In this document: positions 1-40,528 of the stretch, one piece after another
How the letters are laid out: every line of letters starts with the position of its first letter
How positions within the stretch are numbered: the first letter of the stretch is position 1
Assembly: GCA_947479645.1 (NCBI GenBank)
Contig: CANKAJ010000021.1
Location: 1-50,049 of the forward strand
Direction of reading: 5' to 3'
Source of the DNA: Betaproteobacteria bacterium
GTDB taxonomy: Bacteria; Pseudomonadota; Gammaproteobacteria; Burkholderiales; SG8-39
Length of the DNA: 50,049 nucleotides
The notes under the pieces: generated by a model
What the model saw: only the letters and a program-made list of their open reading frames with translations
What the model was told of the DNA's origin: nothing
Databases searched by the model: none
Translations under genes and position numbers: made by a program

Positions 1-497
1 CGGACATGCACCGCCGTGGCCGGCGCACCGCGCTCCTTGACCTTCGCACACAGGCTACGCAGGTCCTCCGGGCCGATCTCGGTCAACAAGCGGTTTCGGA
101 ATGCCGGCAGGATGTCCCGGTCGATTATGCTCTTTCGCATCGACTTGGTGCTCTCCGCCATCCGTGATTCTTCTAACCAGCGGTTGGTGAATTGCTCGAA
201 GGTCTTGGCCTCGGACAGGCGGCGCTTCTCGCGCTGCTTTTCTTGACTGGGGGAAAGCCCCGTGGCGATGGCCTTGCGGGCCTCTGCGCAGCGCTCGCGC
301 GCAAGTAATAGGGAAATTCCGTCCCTGGCACCGAAGCGGCCGATCGTGAGCGTCTCCCGCCGCCCGTTGAGCCGGTAGTCGAGTCGAAAAGTGATCGTGC
401 CCTTGGGTGAGACGGTCACGTACATGCCGTCTCGGTCGGCAACCTTGTATGCGGTGGCCCTGGGTTTCAGGCCCCTCAGCGTTCCATCTGACAGCAT
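1..497 (-). CDS. Tyrosine-type integrase, DUF4102/P4 family, 5' part (runs off the window)
   Basis: Reading the minus strand from the ATG at 495-497 gives an open frame of 165 codons that continues past position 1. The first ~90 residues match the DUF4102 arm-binding domain of P4/CP4-57-type integrases: a VTPKG-like stretch (VTVSPKGTITFRLDY), then ETLTIGRFG, then a basic helix ending RKAIATGLSP. Residues ~105-165 look like the SAM-like core-binding domain (TFEQFTNRWLEE, DILPAF, IGPEDLRSLC). The catalytic R-H-R-Y domain is outside the window. A strong ribosome site (GGAGGAGGG) lies just before the ATG. The gene starts 295 bases from the guaA stop codon and reads away from it, the usual place for the integrase of an element inserted at a gene's 3' end. 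The family call is firm; the element's identity cannot be judged here. Confidence 0.85.
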   Translation of the reverse strand, partial: MLSDGTLRGLKPRATAYKVADRDGMYVTVSPKGTITFRLDYRLNGRRETLTIGRFGARDGISLLLARERCAEARKAIATGLSPSQEKQREKRRLSEAKTFEQFTNRWLEESRMAESTKSMRKSIIDRDILPAFRNRLLTEIGPEDLRSLCAKVKERGAPATAVHV

Positions 498-521
498 CGT
501 TACGCCCTCCTCCGCACGGAT

Positions 522-676
522 TTTACCGTCACGAAAAAATAGGCGCTATAACTTCTTTATATAATTGTTTTTATTGTACTTTTTGTAATATTTTTTACCG
601 TCAGTCTGCTTTTTGAAGTGACGGTAAAGTTTTTTCAGATCCTGATCGAAAATACTTACCGTCAGTTTTACCGTCA
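522..676. repeat. Five copies of TTTACCGTCA, one inverted: candidate integrase arm-type sites
   Basis: Copies lie at 522-531, 594-603, 655-664 (first base C instead of T) and 667-676 on the plus strand, and at 619-628 as TGACGGTAAA. The second and third form an inverted pair with a 15-base spacer. The last two plus-strand copies are 12 bases apart. The first copy sits just upstream of the integrase ribosome site. Repeated decamers beside an integrase gene are typical of arm-type sites bound by the N-terminal domain of tyrosine integrases. The repeats are seen directly; their role is inferred. Confidence 0.6.
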
Positions 677-711: not shown

Positions 712-792
712 TCTCGACAGACAATTATTATTTATATCAATGTGTTATAGTATGTTTTCGACTGATCCCGATAGACGCTGAAGGACGCCGAA

Positions 793-2433
793 TTATTCCC
801 ACTCGATCGTCGCCGGCGGCTTGCTTGAAATATCGTACACAACCCGATTAATGCCGCGCACTTCATTGATGATGCGATTGGACACGCGTGCCAGCAATTC
901 GTATGGTAGTGGTGCCCAATCTGCCGTCATGAAATCACTGGTCTGCACCGCGCGCAGTGAAACGACGTATTCATATGTACGCCCATCACCCATGACGCCC
1001 ACAGACTTGACTGGTAAAAACACCGCAAAGGCCTGCGCAGTCTTGTCATACCAGCTGACGCCATCACTATCCTTCATGGCCCAAAGTTCATCCATGAAAA
1101 TGGCATCGGCGCGACGCAACAATTCCGCATAATCGCGTTTCACCGCCCCCAGAATTCGCACGCCCAAACCGGGACCAGGAAAAGGATGACGAAAGACCAT
1201 TTCGCGCGGCAAACCGAGCGCAAGGCCAAGTTGACGAACTTCATCCTTGAACAATTCGCGCAGAGGTTCCAACAGTTTGAGATGCAATGTTTCGGGCAGA
1301 CCACCAACATTGTGGTGGGACTTGATCGTGTGCGCCTTTTTGGATTTTGCCCCTGCAGACTCAATCACGTCCGGATAAATGGTGCCTTGAGCGAGCCACA
1401 TTATTTTTGGGAATTTCTTGGCCTCAGCCTGAAAAACCTCAACAAATTCCCTGCCGATTATCTTGCGCTTTTGCTCCGGATCGGTAATGCCCTCAAGTTC
1501 ATTCATAAAGCGTTCGCTGGCATCAACCATGTCTACCTTGACGCCAAGATTGCGGGCAAAGGTATCCATGACCTGCTTGCCTTCATTGAGGCGCAGAAGT
1601 CCATTGTCAACAAAGACGCAGGTCAATTGATCGCCGATGGCCTTGTGTATCAAGGCAGCGGCAACTGCAGAGTCCACTCCACCGGAAAGCCCCAGCAAGA
1701 CTTCCTCTGTACCGACTTGGCTGCGGATTTTCGCGACGGCTTCACTGATGTAATCAGGCATATTCCAATCGCCGCGACAGCCGCAAATTTCTCGCACAAA
1801 GCGAGTAAGTACCGTCTTTCCCTGCAATGTATGAGTGACTTCCGGGTGAAACTGAACAGCGTAAAAGCCTCGGACCTCGTCAGCCATTCCGGCAATTGGG
1901 CATGAGTCGGTGGATGCCATTAATTTGAACCCGGGAGGCAGTTCGGTCACCTTGTCGCCATGACTCATCCAGACCTTGAGGATGCCATGACCCTCGCTTG
2001 TTCTTGAGTCCTCTATGCCATCAAACAACCGTGTATGCCCACGCGCCCTGACTTCCGCATAGCCAAACTCCCGCATCTGCCCCATCTCGACCTTGCCTCC
2101 AAGCTGGGTTGCCATGGTTTGCATTCCGTAGCAAATGCCGAGTACAGGTACTCCTAACTCAAAAACAATCTCCGGTGCACGAGGCGTATCACCTTCATAG
2201 ACCGAGGCGTGACTTCCGGACAATATGATGCCGCGCGGTGCGAAATCCCGGATGAACTGCGGGCTGATGTCGTAGGGGTGAAGCTCAGAATATACGCCGG
2301 CATCACGAACGCGACGTGCAATTAACTGAGTAACCTGTGAACCGAAATCGAGGATCAGGATGCGATCATGGACACTGGAAAGCTGCTCCTTACCATGCCG
2401 AACCTGGGCTGCGGTCGCCTCCTGCTTTGCCAA
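793..2433 (-). CDS. guaA: GMP synthase (glutamine-hydrolysing)
   Basis: GuaA converts XMP to GMP with glutamine and ATP, the last step of guanine nucleotide synthesis. Counted from [13 protein letters not shown] (residue 1, codon at 2373), the amidotransferase domain has nucleophile Cys81 (GICYGMQ) and His176/Glu178 (QFHPE). The ATP-pyrophosphatase loop is SGGVDS at 230-235, and the protein ends with the conserved PPATIEWE. The homologous part is 526 residues, as usual. The start is unclear: relatives begin with Met where this gene has GTC, and no ATG or GTG lies nearby. The start given here is TTG at 2433, which has GGAG nine bases upstream and adds about 20 residues. An ATG at 2484 would overlap guaB by 47 bases and lacks a ribosome site. 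The gene follows guaB closely as an operon, and its 3' end borders the integrase island. Confidence 0.95.
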
Positions 2434-2437
2434 AGTC

Positions 2438-3931
<1,494 letters not shown>

Positions 3932-14732: not shown

Positions 14733-17027
14733 CTAGAACACTTGTCCGAGTTGGAACTGAATACGATCAGTTCTATCCCCTACTTTTTCATTTAAGGCCT
14801 TTGCAATACTAATTTTGATTGGTCCAAAGGGTGAGTTCCAAGCAAATCCGAGTCCGGCACCATAACGCATGTCACCCAAGTCCACTTTTTGGCCGTTCCC
14901 ATAAACTTGGCCAGCATCAAGAAAAACGCTCAGCCGCATGGAACGGTCATTGCCAACGCCCGGCATGGGAAATAACAATTCCGCATTCCCAACAATGCGC
15001 TTATTTCCCCCTAGCCTAGAGCCATCAACATCCGTAGGACCTAATGAATTGGGCGCAAAGGCACGAACTGTATTTGCACCACCAGCATAGTAGTTCTTCC
15101 AGAAGGGTAAAGGTTGGCCTCCAAATCCATTTGCAATGCCAACCTCTCCATTCAACATAAAAGTCAAGGTTCTCGTTAAAGGCTTGTACCATTGATTTTG
15201 ATAATTGGCGCGGTAGTATTTCAGGCTACCCGGTGGAACTGCGAACTCCCCTGTCGCGCGCTGCACATGTCCGCTGGTGGTCCAGATTGCGCTGTCTCGA
15301 GTATCCTGCTGCCACCCAGTAGAACCCAGTAAAGATGAATAGGACGATCCATATTGTGAAGTAAAAGCCAAGATGCGGGGCGGCGAATCAAAGAAGGTAT
15401 CAAGTTTTGTCCGGTCAACACTCAGTCCAAAACTGATGCGATCGACATCGGTGACCGGGTAACCAAACCGCACTCCACCACCTAGAGAGAGGGTTCTATA
15501 ATTTCCGAGCGACAAGGAACTTGGATCACTTCGACGAAGATAAGTATCAAAACCACGACTCACACCATCCACTGTGTAATAGGGATCGGTATAAGACACT
15601 CCTAGGTTGGTGTTGACCTTGCTGGTATTGGCTGCTATTGAAAGCGCTTTCCCACTTCCAAATACATTATTTTGCGAAACTGAGCCTTGGATAACCACTT
15701 TTTCTTGGGTCGAAAATCCAAGTCCTAAAAGCAGAGCCCCGGTTGGCTGTTCTTTGACCTTCACAAGGACATCAACCTGATCCGAAGTACCCGCCACTGG
15801 CGGTGTTTCTATATTGACCTCTGAAAAAAATGAGGTTCTTTCAAGACGTTTCTTCGAGTTTTGAATTTTCTCTGTATCGTAGTAGGCGTTTTCAAGCTGC
15901 CGAAGTTCTCGACGAGCAACCTCGTCTCTGGTACGGCTATTACCCACAACATCGATTCGACGCACATAGACACGCCGCCCGGGGTCAATCATCACCGTGA
16001 ACATGGCGGTACGTTTGTCGCGATCAAGTTCAGGCACTGCATTGGCATTTGCGAAAGCATAACCATCCCTTCCGAGACGATCTGTAATCGCTTTTGTACT
16101 CTCAGTCAGTTTTTCACGACTAAACGCCTCGCCTTCCTTCAGTGTTATCAGTTTTCGAAGCTCTTCTTCCGGAACTAGCAGTTCACCACCCAATTTAACG
16201 CCACTTACCGTGTACTTTTCTCCCTCGGTAATATTTATCGTTAAGTAGATGTCACGCTTCTCAGGAGTGATTGATACTTGCGTTGAATCAATAGTGAAAT
16301 CAAGATAGCCGCGATTAAGATAAAACGAACGTAGCCCATCAAGATCCCCGGCCAGTTTTTGGCGAGAGTACTGATCATTTTTCGTGTACCAGGACATCCA
16401 TCCCGTCGTTTGGGAATTAAATAAATCCAGTAGGTCCTTGTCACGGAATACTTGATTTCCTACGATATTGATCGATTTTATTTTTGCTGCTTCACCTTCA
16501 TCCACTGAAAAATTGATCCCAACCCGGTTTCGTTCCAATGGTGTAACAGTAGTTGTGACCTGAGCTGCATAGTGACCTCGAGACTGATAGTTTCGCTTAA
16601 TCTCCTGTTCAGCCTGTTCAAGCTGGGCTCGATCAAATACACGCCCTTCCTGAAATCCTACGTCACGTAATGACTTCTTGATGTCTTCTGGTTTAAAGGA
16701 TTTCATCCCTACGAAATCAAGCGCTGCGATTGCGGGACGTTCTTCGACGAAAACGATCAATACATCCTTTTCAACTTCCAGTCTCACATCGCGGAAGAAT
16801 CCGGTTCCGAATAATGCACGCAGGGCCTGAGCGGCTTTCTCATCAGTCATCGTCTCGCCGACTTTGACTGGCAGGTAGTTGAATACAGTACCGGCTTCTA
16901 TGCGTTGAATACCCTCGACTCTAATATCGCGAACGATAAAAGGGTCGAATGCACTTGCCAACCCAGGCAAAAGAGCAAGTGCCAGAACAGCCGGATACAT
17001 ATAACGATGCAGCATATTGTTTTTCAT
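14733..17027 (-). CDS. bamA: Outer-membrane protein assembly factor BamA
   Basis: BamA inserts beta-barrel proteins into the outer membrane. The 764-residue precursor has a signal peptide (cleaved after GLASA), five POTRA domains (about 26-420; the first begins FIVRDIRVEGIQRIE) and a C-terminal 16-strand barrel ending in the expected beta-signal, QFQLGQVF, with a terminal Phe. The loop-6 motif, normally VRGF or VRGY, reads VRAF (Ala at residue 656), a change at one of the most conserved positions of the Omp85 family. Everything else looks intact. It sits between rseP and skp. Confidence 0.97.
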   Translation of the reverse strand: MKNNMLHRYMYPAVLALALLPGLASAFDPFIVRDIRVEGIQRIEAGTVFNYLPVKVGETMTDEKAAQALRALFGTGFFRDVRLEVEKDVLIVFVEERPAIAALDFVGMKSFKPEDIKKSLRDVGFQEGRVFDRAQLEQAEQEIKRNYQSRGHYAAQVTTTVTPLERNRVGINFSVDEGEAAKIKSINIVGNQVFRDKDLLDLFNSQTTGWMSWYTKNDQYSRQKLAGDLDGLRSFYLNRGYLDFTIDSTQVSITPEKRDIYLTINITEGEKYTVSGVKLGGELLVPEEELRKLITLKEGEAFSREKLTESTKAITDRLGRDGYAFANANAVPELDRDKRTAMFTVMIDPGRRVYVRRIDVVGNSRTRDEVARRELRQLENAYYDTEKIQNSKKRLERTSFFSEVNIETPPVAGTSDQVDVLVKVKEQPTGALLLGLGFSTQEKVVIQGSVSQNNVFGSGKALSIAANTSKVNTNLGVSYTDPYYTVDGVSRGFDTYLRRSDPSSLSLGNYRTLSLGGGVRFGYPVTDVDRISFGLSVDRTKLDTFFDSPPRILAFTSQYGSSYSSLLGSTGWQQDTRDSAIWTTSGHVQRATGEFAVPPGSLKYYRANYQNQWYKPLTRTLTFMLNGEVGIANGFGGQPLPFWKNYYAGGANTVRAFAPNSLGPTDVDGSRLGGNKRIVGNAELLFPMPGVGNDRSMRLSVFLDAGQVYGNGQKVDLGDMRYGAGLGFAWNSPFGPIKISIAKALNEKVGDRTDRIQFQLGQVF

Positions 17028-17052
17028 AATTCGGCATCTCGCCGCGATGGTG

Positions 17053-17072
17053 AAAATGCCTTTTTACAGGCA
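17053..17072 (-). terminator. Weak hairpin with T-run between rseP and bamA
   Basis: On the minus strand TGCCT and AGGCA form a five-base stem with a six-base loop, followed by TTTT. It lies in the 64-base gap between the rseP stop and the bamA start. The stem is short, so it is at most a partial terminator or an mRNA processing site within the operon. Confidence 0.25.
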
Positions 17073-17091
17073 GAAGTTTTCGAACAGGGCA

Positions 17092-18465
17092 TTAGCTGGA
17101 AAGCGCACGACTGATATCGTTGAAAAAAGCAAAAGCCATTAGTACAAGTAACAACGCGAGGCCGAGACGCTGCCCCATATCCATCATGCGCTCAGAAACC
17201 GGACTTCCCTTGAATAACTCGATCATATAATACATCAAGTGTCCGCCATCCAATAACGGGATGGGAAGCAGATTCAAAACACCCAAACTAATACTGATCA
17301 AAGCGAGAAAAGACAGGTATGGCGCCAATCCGAGTTGCGCCGACTGCCCCGCGTAATCGGCAATCGTAATTGGCCCAGAAAGATTGCGCCACGATACATC
17401 ACCTGTGACCATTTTAACAATCATACGCAAACTGAAAGTAGCCGTATCCCAAGTCCTGATTACAGCCATGCGAAAAGATGTCAGCACACCATGGTGCATG
17501 ACAGTCATCAGGTCTCGCATTGCCTGTTCAGGCAATTCCGGGCCTGCACCAATCCGGCCAATTCGGCCATCACTTTTTTCTGGGCTCTGAACAGACTGCG
17601 GAGTCAGTGAAACAAGCATTCTTTCATTTTGCCGCACAGTTTCAATTGTAATCTGCATCCCGGGATGTTCGCGGATAGCTTGAACTATGTCATCCCACGA
17701 TCCCATTTTTATACCATCGATGGACAACACATGATCCCCCGGACGCAAGCCGGCTATCTCCGCCACATCATTGGGGACCAGTTTTCCGATGACCGGTGGC
17801 GCCACCGGACGAAACAGACGCAATCCAATTCTTTTTAGAGGGTCCCCCTCAAGATCGTCAATCTGAAACCCAGTCAGATCCAGCCTACGCCAGGCCAGTT
17901 CATTTTTGGTGTTGATTACTTCCAACTGTACGGGACGCCTTTCTATCGCGGACTGCAATATCCGCCAGCGTGCATCCTGCCAAGTTGATATGGTTTCCCC
18001 ATCAATCGCTCGGATGGTTTCACCTGACTGCAGCCCACTAAGTGCCGCTATTGACTGCACATCCGGTTTTGCCAATATGGGTTTTGCTTCCTGCACGCCA
18101 TTGAGAAACAGGACCCAGTACACGAATATTGCCAATATGAAATTGGCAATCGGTCCTGCGGAAACAATAGCTATTCTTTTCCAGATTTGCTGTCGATTGA
18201 AGGCGCGCATCAGTTCGCTGTTTGCAACAACGCCCTCCCTTTCATCCAGCATTTTCACATAGCCGCCGATAGGCAGGATCGAAAGCGACCACTGTGTCCC
18301 GTCACGTCCAAAGGGACGTTCCCACAATACTTTGCCAAAGCCCAGTGAGAATCGCAGAACTTTTACGCCACACCATTTCGCAACTAAAAAATGTCCTAAC
18401 TCGTGAATTGCAATCAGCACACCCAATGCCACCAGGAAAGCACCTATCGTGACAAGGACACTCAC
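17092..18465 (-). CDS. rseP: Site-2 protease RseP (sigma-E regulator)
   Basis: RseP is an inner-membrane zinc metalloprotease that cuts anti-sigma factor RseA inside the membrane and releases sigma-E. Taking the GTG at 18465, which overlaps the dxr stop as GTGA, gives 457 residues beginning [20 protein letters not shown]. The zinc motif HELGH is at 21-25, and the third ligand lies in the LLDGGH segment near the C-terminus. Two PDZ domains lie in the periplasmic middle part (the second around [12 protein letters not shown]). About four membrane segments are visible. Longer starts within dxr are not supported. Adjacent bamA fits envelope quality control. Confidence 0.95.
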
Positions 18466-19652
18466 GCCGCATTTACCTTTAGTTCTGAAATCAGGTTCGT
18501 CGCACACTCTCTCGCAATTTTATCCGCGATGAGCACGTCGTCCAAACACCTGATCGTTGCTACGTCAACTAACGAGAGCGTCTCTTCGATGACATCGGTT
18601 ATCCGCAAGAAAGGTAGGCGCAAATTCAAGAATGCGGCTACCGCAATCTCATTGGCGGCATTCATGATCGTCGGCGCAGTTCCGCCGGCTGCCAGCGCCT
18701 CATAGGCAATTCGCAACGAAGGAAATCGATCCATATCTGGCCGCTCGAAAGTGAGTGTGCCGATTGATGCCAGATCGAGGGAATACACCCCTGATTCAAT
18801 TCTGTCGGGATAGGATAAGGCTTGGGCGATTGGCGTTCGCATATCAGGATTACCGAGCTGAGCGATAACAGATGCGTCTGCGTACTCAACCATTGAATGA
18901 ATGACACTCTGTGGATGAATGACCACTTCAATTTGCTCGCTACTCGCGTCAAAGAGCCAGTGCGCCTCGATAATTTCCAGTGCCTTGTTCATCATCGTGG
19001 CCGAATCAACGGAAATTTTTCGTCCCATCACCCAATTGGGATGAGCGCAGGCCTCATCCGGCGTAACTCTGCTCAATTCGTCACGCTGTCGCTGTCGGAA
19101 AGGACCACCAGATGCAGTCAACACGACTTTTCTGACCCCTTTTTGTTGCAAGGTTCGACTATTCTCGTAGGGCAGACACTGGAAAATGGCATTATGTTCA
19201 CTATCGATCGGAAGCAGAATACTCCCACTGGCACGGACAGCATCCATAAAAATCGGACCGGCCATCACAAGTGCCTCTTTGTTTGCCAGAAGAATGCGCT
19301 TCCCCGCATTTGCCGCCGCAAGCGTCGCAGCCAGTCCTGCGGCGCCGACTATCGCCGCTACCACGCAATCCACCTCCGGCTGGATCACGGCTTGAACAAG
19401 GCTGTCAGGACCCGTCAGTATCTCGGTATTCAGCCCGGAATCCTGTATAAGGCGCCGCAACTCAATAGCCGCATTTTCATTCGAAATACAAGCGATCCTT
19501 GGACGAAATTGTCGGCACAGCGCAGCAAGCTCGTCAACAGCGGTATTCGCGGTCAACACATGCACCTTGAACCGATCCGGATGTCGCGCTATGACATCCA
19601 GCGTGCTCTTTCCGATGGACCCGGTGGCTCCTAGTATGGCTACTTGCTGCAT
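18462..19652 (-). CDS. dxr: 1-deoxy-D-xylulose 5-phosphate reductoisomerase
   Basis: Dxr makes 2-C-methyl-D-erythritol 4-phosphate in the non-mevalonate isoprenoid pathway, supplying precursors for UppS two genes downstream. The 396-residue protein has the NADPH motif GATGSIG (8-14), [11 protein letters not shown], the substrate loop TASGGPFR, the metal-binding [12 protein letters not shown] and [17 protein letters not shown] segments. It ends by overlapping rseP and starts six bases after cdsA. Confidence 0.97.
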
Positions 19653-19658
19653 GGCAGT

Positions 19659-20471
19659 TCAACCAAGATAAAAAAGCGCTGCAATCGGCAATATCGGCAA
19701 TAGTGCATCTACCCGATCCAGAATACCGCCGTGACCCGGCAGCAGACCACTACTATCCTTTACGCCGACAATGCGTTTCAAATAGGACTCCAGCAGATCC
19801 CCAACAATACCGGCACTCGCAAGCACCAACCAGAGCATCACTAACAGAGTGGGGAGCATACTATGCTCGGCAAGCCACCCGGGGGTAATCAACGGCTTTA
19901 TGAACAGAGTACTGATGATCGCATAACTCAATACCGCCGCAAGCGCGCCATATACTCCTTCCCAGGTCTTGCCGGGGCTAACATCGGGGGCCAGTTTGTG
20001 GCGACCAAAAGAGCGTCCCGTAAAATAAGCCGCAGAATCAGATACCCAGGCTATGGCCATGATTGCCAATAAGAGCCCTGGCATAATGGTGCGAAGTTCG
20101 ACGAGCGCCAACTGCACGGGTATCAATACCACCGTACCCATGAGGAGCCTGGGGACTATACCTGTAATCCTGGGGCGCCGCCAAAGCAACCAAGGGGCAA
20201 TCAATATCCAGAATAGTAGAGATACACAATAAGCCAGTTTGTGCGTCCAAGACAATTCAGTGTAGGTAATAACAATTGCGACACACACAATGAACAGTGT
20301 ATAGGGAATCCTCTTGAGTGCTGTCAATCCACTCAAACCAGCCCATTCCCATGCACAACCGTAAAGTACACAAAATGTAACTAGAATCCATGCTTCGCGA
20401 GCAAGCAGAAACAAGGCGGGAATAAATAGGACTGCGAGAATAAATGCAGTCAAAATACGCTGACTCAGCAT
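19659..20471 (-). CDS. cdsA: Phosphatidate cytidylyltransferase
   Basis: CdsA makes CDP-diacylglycerol from phosphatidate and CTP, the branch-point step of phospholipid synthesis. The 270-residue protein is strongly hydrophobic with seven or eight membrane segments. It carries the family signature in its second half: SPGKTWEGVYGALAA, GDLLESYLKR and then KDSSGLLPGHGGILDRVDALL. It lies between uppS and dxr, the common order. Confidence 0.95.
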   Translation of the reverse strand: MLSQRILTAFILAVLFIPALFLLAREAWILVTFCVLYGCAWEWAGLSGLTALKRIPYTLFIVCVAIVITYTELSWTHKLAYCVSLLFWILIAPWLLWRRPRITGIVPRLLMGTVVLIPVQLALVELRTIMPGLLLAIMAIAWVSDSAAYFTGRSFGRHKLAPDVSPGKTWEGVYGALAAVLSYAIISTLFIKPLITPGWLAEHSMLPTLLVMLWLVLASAGIVGDLLESYLKRIVGVKDSSGLLPGHGGILDRVDALLPILPIAALFYLG

Positions 20472-37100: not shown

Positions 37101-37677
37101 GCGACAGATTCTCGCGGGTATCCGACAGACGATTCTCCGTCTCGCGCCGGCGATCCTTGTATTTTGATACGCCTGCTGCCTCTTCCAGAAAAACCCGTAA
37201 CTCCTCCGGCTTGGCCTCAATGATGCGGGATATCATCCCCTGTTCAATGATCGCGTATGCGCGTGGCCCGAGACCCGTACCCATGAAGATGTCATGGATA
37301 TCGCGCCGGCGGACATGCGTGTTATTGATGAGATACGACGATTCGCCCTCACGCGTCAGCACACGCTTAACTGAAATTTCGGCGTATTGCGACCACTGCC
37401 CGGCAGCCTTGCCAAGGCTGTTATCGAACACCAGCTCAACACTGGCGCGAGAAATGGGCTTGCGCAAGGTTGAGCCATTGAAGATGACATCCTGCATGGA
37501 GTCCCCACGCAGTGCTGAAGCACGTGACTCACCCAGTACCCAGCGCACGGCATCGATAATGTTCGACTTGCCGCACCCGTTGGGACCGACAACACCGACC
37601 AGATCTCCGGGGACATTGACGAGTGTGGGTTCGACAAACGATTTGAAACCGGCCAGCTTGATTTGTGTGAGGCGCAC
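34144..37677 (-). CDS. smc: Chromosome segregation protein SMC
   Basis: SMC forms the condensin ring that organises and separates the chromosome. The 1177-residue protein has Walker A GPNGCGKS (31-38) in the N-terminal head, a coiled coil to about 500, a hinge near 510-650, the return coil, and the C-terminal head with signature LLSGGEKALTAIAL and Walker B CLLDEVDAPLDDANT. Length is normal. It heads the minus-strand series smc-zipA-ligA-galU-hpt-mtnP-def. Partner genes scpA and scpB are not in the window. Confidence 0.97.
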   Translation of the reverse strand: MRLTQIKLAGFKSFVEPTLVNVPGDLVGVVGPNGCGKSNIIDAVRWVLGESRASALRGDSMQDVIFNGSTLRKPISRASVELVFDNSLGKAAGQWSQYAEISVKRVLTREGESSYLINNTHVRRRDIHDIFMGTGLGPRAYAIIEQGMISRIIEAKPEELRVFLEEAAGVSKYKDRRRETENRLSDTRENLSRVADIRQELGTQIEKLERQAEIARRFNDLSAERQHKQNLLWLLRRQEAEADELRYHRDIEKSTVELEAETARLREIEMELEQTREEHYAAGDALSTAQGELYNANTEVARLEGEIRFVSETRQRVEAQLGQLNMQLENGSRQQNQLEEAAALWQQRKSEAEERAILAREQASDESARLPGMEETLRTIRERLDAERRLLAKAEQSLQLENTHIAHADRVLQGLSARQSRLDTERADLLAPDQDALESLICDIAQCESDLASQKAALAQLESVRSSTATERHAALEHVQLLEREKAALDGRLLALQRIQNQVDENGKIHNWTSRQQLTGKPRLWQKIRVEPGWDVAVESILRDRLHAVEIGDDDALKRLLDEPPPAKLTAVTPFSFGEGSCIQGEPGLKPLLDMVTPLDGALQPLLAAWLSNIYAVEGTPGLFTRMALPGNVVLVTRDGHQFSRFGVAFHAPDPSDSGILARQREIEGLEAELQQRLVVIAASRADLDRLDTAVAEHDQGLIRLRAAGVELKQREHDFRLEHVRLVQSQQRYRERAEQISAELAEIAVQQESELVSRLEAVDAVARHQESIDSVRSTLQSITAEFDIAAPELEAQRDSIAQAERNAQQAAFAERECTSKIEEIERTLTTLLEQTHRTTQQLEALSQEIAGLHDEGLAEQLQAALTIRVGKEQDLANTRTRQEVTTSALRNGEEARTATEQKLQPLRDLTADLRLKEQAAHINMEQYAGQLAEAGVDDTMTATLSAEIKQGQRPGPLQGEITRLGAAINELGAINMAALEELGTSQERKAFLDAQAEDLATALETLENAIRKIDSETRQLLQSTFDIVNTQFGLLFPTLFGGGEARLTMTGEEILDAGVVVTARPPGKKNSTIHLLSGGEKALTAIALVFSFFQLNPAPFCLLDEVDAPLDDANTGRFCDLVARMSKQTQFLYISHNKLTMEMATHLVGVTMQEQGVSRVVAVDIDEALKLREPIAA

Positions 37678-37759
37678 GAGTATTTCTGCAAAAAAGGTAA
37701 ATAAACGGCACTAAGCCGGACTAAACATTCAAACGGTATAGTAAATCAGGAGGATTGCC

Positions 37760-37870
37760 ATGCTACGCACAGGAAATATCTGCAGCGAGCTACAGAAATA
37801 TAATACCATTTCCCCTGATTCATCCGGCTGCATCGGCAACCGGAAAACAATATACTTCAGGCACTCCTGA
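37760..37870 (+). CDS. Short upstream ORF (36 codons) before queF, possible leader peptide
   Basis: An ORF of 36 codons starts at an ATG with a perfect AGGAGG six bases upstream (37748-37753), one of the best ribosome sites in the window. It ends nine bases before the queF ATG, which has no clear ribosome site of its own. This suggests that ribosomes ending here could restart at queF. The peptide begins MLRTGNICSELQKY, has two cysteines and no recognised motif. Seven of its codons are of the NAY type read by queuosine tRNAs (AAT, TAT, AAT, GAT, AAC, TAC, CAC), only slightly above chance. A TATAAT at 37799-37804 inside the ORF could be a promoter that bypasses it. It may also be chance. Confidence 0.4.
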   Translation: MLRTGNICSELQKYNTISPDSSGCIGNRKTIYFRHS

Positions 37871-37879
37871 CCCGCATTC

Positions 37880-38296
37880 ATGCCCTCCCAATCCAGCAAA
37901 AAACTGCCTACCTTTCCCAACCCAAACCAGCGTCGGGATTTTCTGATTCGCATGCAGATTCCGGAGTTTACCTGCCTCTGTCCAATGACCGGGCAACCCG
38001 ATTTCGCGACACTGTTCCTAGACTACATCCCGGATCAGAAATGCGTGGAATTAAAAGGTCTCAAACTCTATATCTGGTCGTTTCGGGATACCGGCGCCTT
38101 CCATGAAGCGGTGACAAATGCCATTCTGGATGATCTGGTTTCCGCATTGAAACCCCGCTTCATGCGCCTGACTGCAAAGTTTTTCGTACGCGGAGGCATC
38201 TACACCACGGTGGTTGCCGAACACCGCAAGCGCGGATGGACAACGGATATTGCGCTGCCTCTACCCTCTGCGGATCAGCTCGGCATCACCATGTAA
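37880..38296 (+). CDS. queF: PreQ0 reductase QueF, short (type I) form
   Basis: QueF reduces 7-cyano-7-deazaguanine to preQ1 with NADPH, on the way to queuosine in tRNA. The 138-residue protein is the single-domain YkvM-like form. It has the catalytic Cys34 and Asp41 in CPMTGQPD, then [15 protein letters not shown] with the QueF Glu, and GAFHEAVTN (His75/Glu76), all required residues. Many betaproteobacteria carry the two-domain form of about 270 residues, so the short one is worth noting. It is divergent from smc. No preQ1 riboswitch pattern was recognised upstream; a short ORF with a strong ribosome site lies there instead. Confidence 0.93.
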
Positions 38297-38337
38297 CGCA
38301 ATCGGCGGAATGGCAATCCGCGTTCCACCGATCTGAG

Positions 38338-38367
38338 TTACCCCGCTGTGCACGTACCTCTTATAAT
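38338..38367 (+). promoter_or_regulatory. Possible promoter of dapC
   Basis: A perfect TATAAT lies at 38362-38367, 47 bases before the dapC GTG, with TTACCC (38338-38343) 18 bases upstream as a weak -35. It lies in the 118-base gap after queF, which also holds an imperfect GC-rich inverted repeat just past the queF stop (about 38301-38333). Confidence 0.4.
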
Positions 38368-38414
38368 TGCGCGCTTGCCGCAACAAAGCGGCATTTTCAG
38401 GCAGACAAGATATC

Positions 38415-39614
38415 GTGAATCCAGACCTCGGCCGACTCCAGGCTTACCCCTTCGAAAAACTCAAGGCTTTGTACGCCACGGTCACGCCTGACCCGGCCTA
38501 TTCGCTGATTCCCCTTTATATCGGCGAACCCAAGCATCCGACACCGGAGTTCATCAAGCAGGCGCTGACCGCCAATCTGGCCGGGCTGGCCGGATATCCG
38601 CTGACCCTTGGGCAACCCGAATTGCGTAATGCCATCGCCGTCTGGCTCAAGCGCCGTTACGACCTTCCCTCCATCGACCCGGAAACCCAGATTTTGCCGG
38701 TCATGGGCACGCGCGAAGCCTTGTTTGCCATTGCCCAGGTGGTGGTAGACCGGACCCGGCCAAAGCCAGTTGTTGTTTCTCCCAATCCTTTTTATCAAAT
38801 CTATGAAGGTGCGGCGCTGCTGGCTGGCGCCGATCCGGTTTATCTCAATACACCGGCGAACACGCACATCCCGACCGACTTCAAGGCCATACCCGAAGCC
38901 ATATGGAAGCGTGTCCAGCTGTTTTATACCTGCTCACCCTCCAATCCCGGCGGAAGAGTCATGCCGCTAGCCGAGTGGAAAGAGTTGTTTGAATTGGCCG
39001 ACCGGTACGACTTTTACATCGCCTCGGACGAGTGCTACTCGGAACTGTATTTCGATGAAAGCCAGCCTCCCCTGGGCGGGCTTCAGGCTGCGCACATGCT
39101 GGGACGCACGGACTTCAAGCGCCTGATCATTTTTTCCAGCCTTTCCAAACGATCCAATGTTCCCGGCATGCGTTCCGGTTTTGTCGCGGGCGAAGCAGAG
39201 CTGATGAAGAAGTTCCTGCTCTATCGTACGTACCACGGCAATGCCATGAGTGGCACGATACAGTCAGCCAGCGTCGCCGCCTGGAACGACGAAGTCCACG
39301 TGCGCGAGAATCGAAGGCTTTATGTGGAAAAGTACAAGGCTGTGCTCCCGCTGATCAGCGCACCGCTGCAGACCGCCATGCCCGAAGGCGGCTTTTATCT
39401 CTGGATAAAGACACCCGCTTCAGATGTGGATTTTGCGCGCGAACTGTACCGGCGCTTCAATGTATCAGTGCTGCCTGGCAGCTATCTGGCGCGTGACACC
39501 ACCGGCGGCAACCCCGGCACCAACTACATTCGCATCGCACTGGTAGCCCCGCTGACCGAATGCGTGGAAGCCGCCAGGCGCATCGGTGAGTGTGCCAAAG
39601 CACTCTACTCATAG
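38415..39614 (+). CDS. dapC: Succinyldiaminopimelate aminotransferase
   Basis: DapC carries out the PLP-dependent transamination of the succinylase branch of lysine/diaminopimelate synthesis. From the GTG at 38415 it has 399 residues. Visible are VMGTREALF (cofactor phosphate site), SPSNPGG with Asn177, Asp205 and Tyr208 (ASDECYSEL), and the Schiff-base Lys245 in SSLSKRSN. A longer start at 38367 would overlap the likely -10 element. DapD and DapE downstream act in the steps before and after, supporting this call over other class I aminotransferases. Confidence 0.92.
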   Translation: MNPDLGRLQAYPFEKLKALYATVTPDPAYSLIPLYIGEPKHPTPEFIKQALTANLAGLAGYPLTLGQPELRNAIAVWLKRRYDLPSIDPETQILPVMGTREALFAIAQVVVDRTRPKPVVVSPNPFYQIYEGAALLAGADPVYLNTPANTHIPTDFKAIPEAIWKRVQLFYTCSPSNPGGRVMPLAEWKELFELADRYDFYIASDECYSELYFDESQPPLGGLQAAHMLGRTDFKRLIIFSSLSKRSNVPGMRSGFVAGEAELMKKFLLYRTYHGNAMSGTIQSASVAAWNDEVHVRENRRLYVEKYKAVLPLISAPLQTAMPEGGFYLWIKTPASDVDFARELYRRFNVSVLPGSYLARDTTGGNPGTNYIRIALVAPLTECVEAARRIGECAKALYS

Positions 39615-39706
39615 AAAATGATTTGATAATTATTCTTACCTTAATTCCTATTAAGTAAGCATCTTATTTCCGTATTGATAATAATAATCTAGAACTGAGA
39701 GCCATC
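39615..39706. promoter_or_regulatory. AT-rich dapC-dapD spacer with two GATAAT-based motifs
   Basis: The 92-base spacer is AT-rich. It contains GATAAT-T-ATTCTT (39625-39637) and GATAAT-A-ATAATC (39677-39689), which resemble the 6-1-6 form of the Fur box at 10 and 11 of 12 positions. Given the local AT content this could be chance. The spacer probably also holds a promoter for dapD. Confidence 0.2.
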
Positions 39707-40528
39707 ATGCCCGACTTGCAGACCATCATAGACGCCGCGTGGGAAGACCGCGCATCGATCAACCCCTCCTCCGCTCCTGCGCCATTGCGTGACGCCGTCG
39801 AGCAGGTGATCAGCCAACTGGACGCAGGCACTCTGCGTGTGGCGGAAAAACTCAATGGTGATTGGGTCGTCCATCAATGGGTCAAGAAAGCGGTGTTGCT
39901 GTCTTTCCGGCTGCAGGACAACGCCGTGATGCCCGGCGGCTCTACGCAGTATTACGACAAGGTGGCGACCAAGTTCTCTGGCTACTCGCCCCAGGATTTT
40001 GCCGCGGGCGGTTTTCGTGTGGTCCCGCCGGCCGTTGCGCGGCGTGGCAGCTACCTCGCCAGGAACGTGGTGATGATGCCCTCCTATGTCAACATCGGTG
40101 CCTACGTCGATGAAGGCACCATGGTGGACACCTGGGCCACGGTAGGTTCCTGCGCCCAGATTGGAAAGAATGTGCACCTGTCAGGTGGCGTCGGCATCGG
40201 CGGCGTACTCGAACCGCTGCAGGCCAACCCCACCATTATCGAAGACAACTGCTTCATCGGTGCGCGCTCGGAGGTTGTCGAGGGCGTCATCATCGAGGAA
40301 AACTGCGTGCTTTCCATGGGCGTATTCATCGGCCAAAGCACCAAGATCTACGATCGTGTCAACGACCGCGTCTACTACGGGCGCGTTCCAGCCGGATCGG
40401 TTGTGGTACCGGGGTCAATGCCATCGGCGGATGGCAAGTACAGTCTGTATTGCGTGGTGATCGTCAAGCAGGTAACGCCGCAGACCCGCGCCAAGACGAG
40501 TATCAACGAACTGCTGCGCGGGGACTGA
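39707..40528 (+). CDS. dapD: Tetrahydrodipicolinate N-succinyltransferase
   Basis: DapD succinylates tetrahydrodipicolinate using succinyl-CoA, the step before DapC. The 273-residue protein has the N-terminal helical domain ([17 protein letters not shown]), a left-handed beta-helix of hexapeptide repeats ([35 protein letters not shown]) and the C-terminal segment VVPGSMPS. Full length. It is followed after 34 bases by a pilus ATPase gene. Confidence 0.97.

Follow-up and report, generated by a model that had tools for sequence, protein, structure and literature searches.

In lambda-type intasomes, the core is flanked on either side by sites for an arm-binding integrase, and IHF-like sites lie at fixed positions. 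Tyrosine integrases carry the catalytic signature R..HxxR..H..Y. Integron arrays are composed of gene-sized cassettes without an integrase gene and are rich in toxin-antitoxin (TA) modules where they form large chromosomal arrays. Among the closest described systems is GIsul2, whose core at the 3′ end of guaA is the same 8 bp, 5′-GAGTGGGA-3′, as found here (PMC9376610). In the KplE1 prophage, attL overlaps the integrase promoter and repression of the integrase gene by its own product was measured; in the available part of that report, no arm-site (P′) mutation on its own was seen to lift the repression (PMC2951348). A guaA-flanked defence island has been described in Stenotrophomonas maltophilia (PMC11680222).

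The locus described here lies at one end of the window, by which we mean the whole stretch of 50,049 nucleotides that was analysed; it is the complete contig C21 of a 308-contig, 5.74-Mb genome. A cluster of decamers separates the 3′ end of guaA from an integrase gene. We consider it highly probable that the findings as a whole are best explained by the decamers being arm sites of a tyrosine integrase of the P4/GIsul2 type, and by the same ends bounding integrase-less cassettes that the cognate integrase would move.

Five-site layout upstream of guaA integrases

The features of the region are listed by window coordinates; the arm-type and accessory sites are predictions.

1 to 497, minus strand: tyrosine integrase, N-terminal ~165 codons, with Arm-DNA-bind_3 (PF13356), Phage_int_SAM_3 (PF14659) and Phage_int_M
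505 to 513, minus strand: ribosome binding site (RBS) GGAGGAGGG of the integrase gene, from direct sequence reading
522 to 531, minus strand: putative arm-type site 5, TGACGGTAAA, 24 nt upstream of the ATG (close homologues: -33 to -36); probable autorepression site
594 to 603, minus strand: putative arm-type site 4, TGACGGTAAA, a sequence match that is conserved in homologues
619 to 628, plus strand: putative arm-type site 3, the inverted copy, conserved in homologues and found in 16/18 long-spacer ends (see below)
655 to 664, minus strand: putative arm-type site 2, TGACGGTAAG, with one mismatch; the copy at this position is exact in two relatives, G029 and G014
667 to 676, minus strand: putative arm-type site 1, TGACGGTAAA, first of the pair with 12-bp period; its start lies 132 nt from the core start
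735 to 747, plus strand: IHF-like site TATCAATGTGTTA between core and arm sites, matching WATCARNNNNTTR
769 to 774, plus strand: CGATAG hexamer, candidate site of an RDF (AlpA); single copy here, repeated in relatives
791 to 808, minus strand: attachment core GATCGAGTGGGAATAATT at the guaA 3′ end, with the 8-bp GAGTGGGA at 797 to 804
793 to 2484, minus strand: guaA (GMP synthase), the target gene, with Pfam GMP_synt_C and GATase

Written as TTTACCGTCA, the decamer is exact at 522-531 (+), 594-603 (+), 619-628 (-) and 667-676 (+), and the fifth copy at 655-664 (+) reads CTTACCGTCA. The preliminary description had counted four direct copies and one inverted copy within 155 bases; five sites do occupy 522-676, but the direct copy at 655-664 carries a mismatch. 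The inverted pair with 15 bases between its members (594/619) and the pair whose starts are 12 bases apart (655/667) are both present as it had described them. In the 50-kb window, TGACGGTAAA/TTTACCGTCA is the sole 10-mer that occurs four or more times inside 200 bp; dinucleotide shuffling of the window, repeated 100 times, never produced such a 10-mer. Across the 5.74-Mb genome, 20 exact decamers were counted: four here, five on contig C114 and 11 scattered. The concern that the decamer might be equally common elsewhere in the genome is answered by a reversed control pattern, of which there are eight copies genome-wide, so that the 11 copies outside the clusters amount to background. On the other side of the cluster, eight sampled proteins past guaA (2438-50049) look chromosomal, namely guaB, PEP synthase-like, BamA-like, GlnD-like, NAD+ DNA ligase, SMC, M20 peptidase and kinase/pyrophosphorylase.

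The integrase gene starts with an ATG at 497-495 (-) and is cut by the contig end. Its product matches Arm-DNA-bind_3 with an E-value of 2e-17 (63.5 bits against a Pfam cut-off of 27) and shares 98% identity, over 165 aa, with the integrase of G028 (419 aa). The catalytic part is absent from the window's contig; in the full-length G028 homologue, HDLRR, LAHED and GVYNKAEY were seen by eye. A search for the C-terminal part in the rest of the assembly returned two weak matches, with 36% and 28% identity. An integrase at an E-value of 1e-30 or better was found in 5 of 98 family genomes, the window's own included, and in relatives an alpA gene adjoins the integrase gene.

In homologues, the layout is conserved. 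All 15 non-identical upstream regions whose integrase shares at least 84% identity with the G028 query, several of them from close kin of one another, carry the five decamers, none with more than one mismatch, at about -181, -169, -132 (inverted), -107 and -35 relative to the ATG. The expectation that the decamer would recur near homologous integrases is thereby confirmed, with the same five-site layout. Upstream of integrases with 65-75% identity, mostly four or five sites are retained, some with two mismatches. At larger distances the motif changes: TGACGGTATA-like sites were found with an Acinetobacter plasmid and Sphingomonas p5 copy (69%) and with a Klebsiella plasmid copy (46-50%), and CATGGTAT sites with a GIsul2-type copy (54%), which scores equal to copies on a 149-kb plasmid of A. 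baumannii ATCC 17978, and with the E. coli guaA integrase and island (50-54% range). Exact decamers are still present in some relatives at 53-57%, and none was found in the upstream regions of L214 and L218, whose integrases are 51-52% identical. The suggestion that the motif is specific for an integrase subfamily therefore holds in so far as the motif changes with lineage, but there is no strict relation to integrase distance, as the exact decamers at 53-57% and the TGACGGTATA of the Klebsiella plasmid copy show.

Several further copies were noted. G029 has a second integrase (L028/L036, G029:C12), 75% identical to that of the window; four of its five site positions are occupied by TGACGGTAGA-like sequences, and its core deviates slightly. 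The 3,975-bp plasmid p5 of Sphingomonas parapaucimobilis (L183) is annotated with guaA, integrase and alpA only; it may represent a circular form or have arisen as an artefact of assembly. In a SAR324 metagenome-assembled genome (MAG; L061), a decamer pair lies upstream of a very distant integrase (26-30%), with no guaA-core junction by the scan rule given below. Junctions obeying that rule occur in Pasteurellaceae isolates (L106, L099, L121), and in two Pasteurellaceae genomes that were searched an integrase of about 51% identity has a stop in frame.

Island ends, end classes and accessory sites

The core GAGTGGGA lies at the guaA 3′ end and has a second copy at the far end of the island, and in G029 both are on one contig. 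There, a complete 74.5-kb island extends from an attL core at C2:559,789 to an attR core at C2:634,262; at one end the guaA core is followed by the five sites, and at the other the core is preceded by a TGACGGTAAA pair. This right-end pair (12 bp apart) starts 79-80 nt before the core start. At integrase-bearing left ends, the cluster starts mostly 131-132 nt after the core start and once 141 nt (window 132 nt). A matching cluster at the far end of the island, as the preliminary description had anticipated, was thus found as pair plus core in G029, and in the window's own genome a correct attR is present on C114; the assignment of this contig to the window's island is uncertain, so that it is only a candidate for the far end. 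The element that ends at this attR (L021:1-17030) holds metal-efflux-like genes (CzcA/CzcB-type and P-type ATPase, from ORFs) and might represent the distal portion of the window's island. A scanner for arm and core together gave no match in 2.78 Mb of reversed sequence (both strands), and the exact attR pattern was present in 16 of 399 genomes of an order sample, the reversed pattern in none of the 399.

In Acidovorax sp. Leaf78, an insert of 6.4 kb can be compared with empty sites. In three relatives, the guaA end and a further ~15-30 nt lead into sequence whose Leaf78 counterpart starts 86-94 nt to the right of the right-core start, and this match position of the flank fixes the insertion point within ~100 nt. 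Two other relatives lack guaA beside the core and have attR-like sequence before it; they are read as filled sites. For the G029 island an empty site was sought among nine relatives, and the right flank matched G029 alone.

An exact decamer-pair scan of 84,980 species genomes, with a chance expectation of ~0.5 estimated by base count, gave at least 119 stretches, some sharing a record, and three loci from viral contigs raise this to at least 122. Among the matches listed, at least 110 pair-core junctions lie in 98 of the 122 loci (97 of the 119 genome loci), and 24 of the 122 have no junction by the scan rule, which is strict and misses some real ones, such as the right end in G290/L091 with GAGTGGGAAAG. 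In these and the following site counts exact duplicates were removed and close relatives retained; many of the genomes are MAGs, in which short contigs may be misbinned. The left ends among the matches listed form two classes, one with a spacer of ~130 nt (short-spacer, L13) and one with a spacer of 183-188 nt (long-spacer, L18). Median spacer identity is 0.52 within the short-spacer class, 0.39 within the long-spacer class and 0.35 between them. Short-spacer ends with at least 1.7 kb downstream are followed by an integrase in 12 of 18 cases (one reversed and one matched over 84 residues only), long-spacer ends in 0 of 14, both among the matches listed.

Accessory sites were found at fixed places. 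An IHF-like motif occurs in 24 of 87 right ends, all at one position (0.5 in letter shuffles), in 10 of 38 short spacers, all at one position and strand, as in the window (0.3), and in 11 of 21 long-spacer ends, ten within 4 nt (0.2); the consensus is found in only a quarter to half of the ends. The hexamer CGATAG is strongly enriched upstream of the right pair (160 copies in 86 stretches versus 6.9 in shuffles) and in short spacers (90 copies in 38 versus 2.1), and nearly absent from long spacers (6 copies in 21). Over the whole window it is near background (22 versus 16.1).

The interpretation of the cluster as an integrase arm-type layout gains support from the conserved five-site arrangement, the two-end symmetry, the guaA core and the fixed IHF-like sites, and judging from these sequence patterns the decamers are very probably docking (arm-type) sites of the DNA-inserting enzyme. 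In such a model, the N-terminal Arm-DNA-bind_3 domain of the integrase would grip TGACGGTAAA, while its catalytic domain would recombine the core GAGTGGGA at the guaA 3′ end. The five decamers would form the arm on the integrase side and the 12-bp-spaced pair the other arm, at the right end. IHF, bound between arms and core, might bend the DNA into the intasome, and the CGATAG repeats are likely candidates for the sites of an AlpA-type directionality factor. The cognate integrase could then move integrase-less cassettes in trans or in cis.

It had also been suggested that the copy next to the ribosome binding site serves self-repression. The decamer cluster overlaps the integrase upstream region by position; a consensus scan recognised no sigma-70-type promoter and no terminator at 470-820. 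Site 5, which is proximal to the RBS, occurs in all 15 of the close integrase-bearing ends and in only 4 of 18 long-spacer ends (at most one mismatch). In the latter, site 3 (inverted) was found in 16 of 18 and site 4 in 6 of 18, whereas the values for site 1 (18 of 18) and site 2 (17 of 18) are no evidence because the scanner selects on both. In effect, the cassettes dissect the arm sites by natural variation: sites retained in the absence of an integrase probably serve recombination, and the one that is usually missing probably serves regulation. Self-repression through site 5 is the most likely role of this copy; the integrase, bound beside the RBS, would repress its own gene as described for KplE1 intS.

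Integrase-less elements, their cargo and their spread

At least 16 core-bounded elements without an integrase were found, 1,354-6,135 bp in size (median 2.4 kb), and such small elements are often stacked in tandem. An element was counted as complete if it is smaller than 8 kb with both ends within the stretch, a definition that favours small elements and excludes one-end elements from the 16. None of the 16 matched any of eight integrase queries (best E-value 0.057). For 14 of them the left ends divide into seven with long spacers (one of 165 nt), six without a recognised left pair and one with a short spacer. Two further short complete elements, outside the 16, carry an integrase: that of Leaf78 (6.4 kb, stop in frame) and that of G290 (2.7 kb). 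The latter, L223 (G290:C7, about 37,607-40,329), has arm/core ends and little beyond the integrase gene (38,760-40,016), and is perhaps a minimal autonomous element.

The strongest alternative is that the integrase-less elements are decayed islands, that is, CIMEs that lost their integrase and have no continuing mobility. CIMEs have been described as decay products (PMC5704250, PMC7563491), and some of the elements here may indeed be decayed islands, as 6 of 18 short-spacer ends (among the matches listed) also lack an integrase. Furthermore, a related integrase (E-value 1e-80) is absent from 25 of 40 distinct junction genomes, and from 6 of 9 entries of better quality (completeness at least 90%, contamination at most 5%). 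Against this, the long-spacer left end has a spacing and a sequence of its own with few CGATAG copies (6 in 21 versus 90 in 38) and was never seen with an integrase (0 of 14 among the matches listed), and distant hosts share cassettes with breakpoints at the core (see below). Decay is a real but unlikely general explanation.

The cargo of the complete integrase-less elements is largely of one kind. TA or abortive-infection genes were found in 13 of the 16 (L136, L162 and L163 by similarity to tested ones), which correspond to about nine distinct cassettes because several recur in two genomes.

HigB/RelE types: L146, L058, L131, L162 second element, L163, L219 first element
PIN toxin with a Phd-like antitoxin below the Pfam cut-off: L107, and L136 by similarity
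AbiEii with or without AbiEi: two in L159, L164 (Ferrovum myxofaciens), L219 second element
HipA with a TOTE primase-helicase: L160
Other three: L165 with a GNAT-family protein of unclear role; L144 and L162 first element with transporters and other genes

The L131 toxin has no Pfam match and was recognised by NCBIfam TIGR02683. Among 146 cargo ORFs, many of them probably spurious, with one-end elements included and without a matched control, the commonest Pfam families were AbiEii (11) and AbiEi_4 (7). The window's own genome has one such cassette left end: on C114, the metal-efflux-like genes are followed by attR and then by an L185 left end, with a frame of 81 residues that shares 90% identity with the AbiEi-like protein of L159. 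Other defence-like genes were noted beside such ends. In L219 (G262:C45, minus-strand 14736-20000), a CBASS cyclase (SMODS) and a patatin phospholipase effector directly follow an arm/core junction. In L167 (G099:C96, 5034-8034), an AbiEii-like protein that shares 93% identity with its L159 counterpart adjoins guaA in an L186 end and is followed by a WYL-domain protein and by possibly Wadjet-like ORFs.

The cassettes appear to have spread between distantly related bacteria, as judged from sequence comparison. Of 801 homologous blocks lying outside guaA, 133 stop on their right side at the core in both loci (0.22 expected) and two do so on their left side; the blocks do not come from independent pairs, and many arise from the arm region that the loci have in common. 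L107/L229 and L136 share a VapC-type cassette at 89% identity, with cores at both ends. In four pairs, cassette and host guaA identities are 87 versus 70.8%, 93 versus 73.9%, 88 versus 70.6% and 93 versus 65.5%. A further pair shows 93 versus 59.7% (guaA over 708 bp only), and a sixth, weaker one 80% over 480 bp versus 74.8%, so that five of the six pairs combine a cassette identity of 87-93% with a host guaA identity of 60-74%. Cassette identity far above that of the host guaA indicates horizontal transfer of the units. A related integrase was not found in the seven genomes searched of the nine in the five strong pairs (G541 and G542 lay outside the search). We infer that an integrase mobilises the cassettes in trans, for which there is an experimental precedent, as the GIsul2 integrase moves the CR2-sul2 unit at the same core (PMC9376610).

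Tandem cassettes might also result from homologous recombination between repeated ends rather than from an integrase. The ends have stretches of up to a few hundred bp in common, which would allow cassettes to recombine through RecA, but the right-end homology of the 133 blocks mostly stops ~3-15 bp from the core, and the spacing of arm, IHF-like site and core is retained although such recombination does not need it, which makes this explanation improbable. The view that the decamers are operators of a separate regulator or of the AlpA directionality factor instead of arm sites is in keeping with their place in the integrase upstream region, and motif variation between lineages cannot separate the two readings as alpA is linked to the integrase, but it is very improbable given that the far-end pair keeps an exact distance from the core, that decamers bound both ends of integrase-less cassettes and that the CGATAG repeat is a better RDF-site candidate.

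With the decamers taken as arm sites, we lean slightly towards a wider reading: guaA integrases may sustain a standing class of non-autonomous, gene-sized, TA- and defence-rich cassettes with a dedicated left end, which would be moved in trans between distant Proteobacteria and stacked in arrays. This would be an integron-like system that works with a phage-type, double-stranded arm/core site, and it would be among the sources of guaA defence islands. That one integrase serves many integrase-less passengers is now a testable idea, and movement in trans, if it occurs, would help to explain why defence and TA modules gather beside guaA. The readable address of arm pair, fixed spacer and guaA core delimits the elements closely even without a recombinase gene, and elements of this kind would be missed by recombinase-first searches.

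Comparison with known systems

In its target at the guaA 3′ end, its GAGTGGGA core and its combination of a tyrosine integrase with alpA, GIsul2 resembles the islands described here, and its CR2-sul2 unit is likewise an att-bounded inner unit without an integrase that is excised and inserted by the GIsul2 integrase (PMC9376610). It differs in its integrase, which is 53.8% identical to that of G029, and in its arm motif CATGGTAT. The main text of the GIsul2 paper, in which no word begins with 'arm', describes a single inner unit with resistance cargo as opposed to the cassette arrays found here (PMC9376610). In the KplE1 prophage with IntS and TorI, attL overlaps the integrase promoter as well, and arm and RDF sites are present. 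On the other hand, its target is a tRNA, TAAA is common to its P′ sites, and repression was measured there, while for the present locus it is predicted (PMC2951348).

The CIMEs of Streptococcus are small integrase-less elements (classical 1.2-13 kb) that keep att sites and lie in tandem with integrase-bearing elements. The cassettes share with them att sites at both ends and, as to eight integrase queries, the lack of an integrase gene. In contrast, CIMEs are described as decay products, the cargo named for them is cadmium resistance and metabolism, and no class-specific left end is described in the available parts of these reports (PMC7563491, PMC5704250). The ssrA islands of Dehalococcoides are also arranged in tandem at one gene end, 15 of them without an integration module, but serine recombinases, the ssrA target and rdhA cargo set them apart (PMC3146451). 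Integron arrays differ by their folded attC site, in place of the double-stranded arm/core ends at guaA. Among the open-access papers listed by literature searches, no title or opening of an abstract describes this guaA cassette class. Integrase-less elements flanked by att sites are already known; a cassette class with a left-end design of its own looks like a new form of them.
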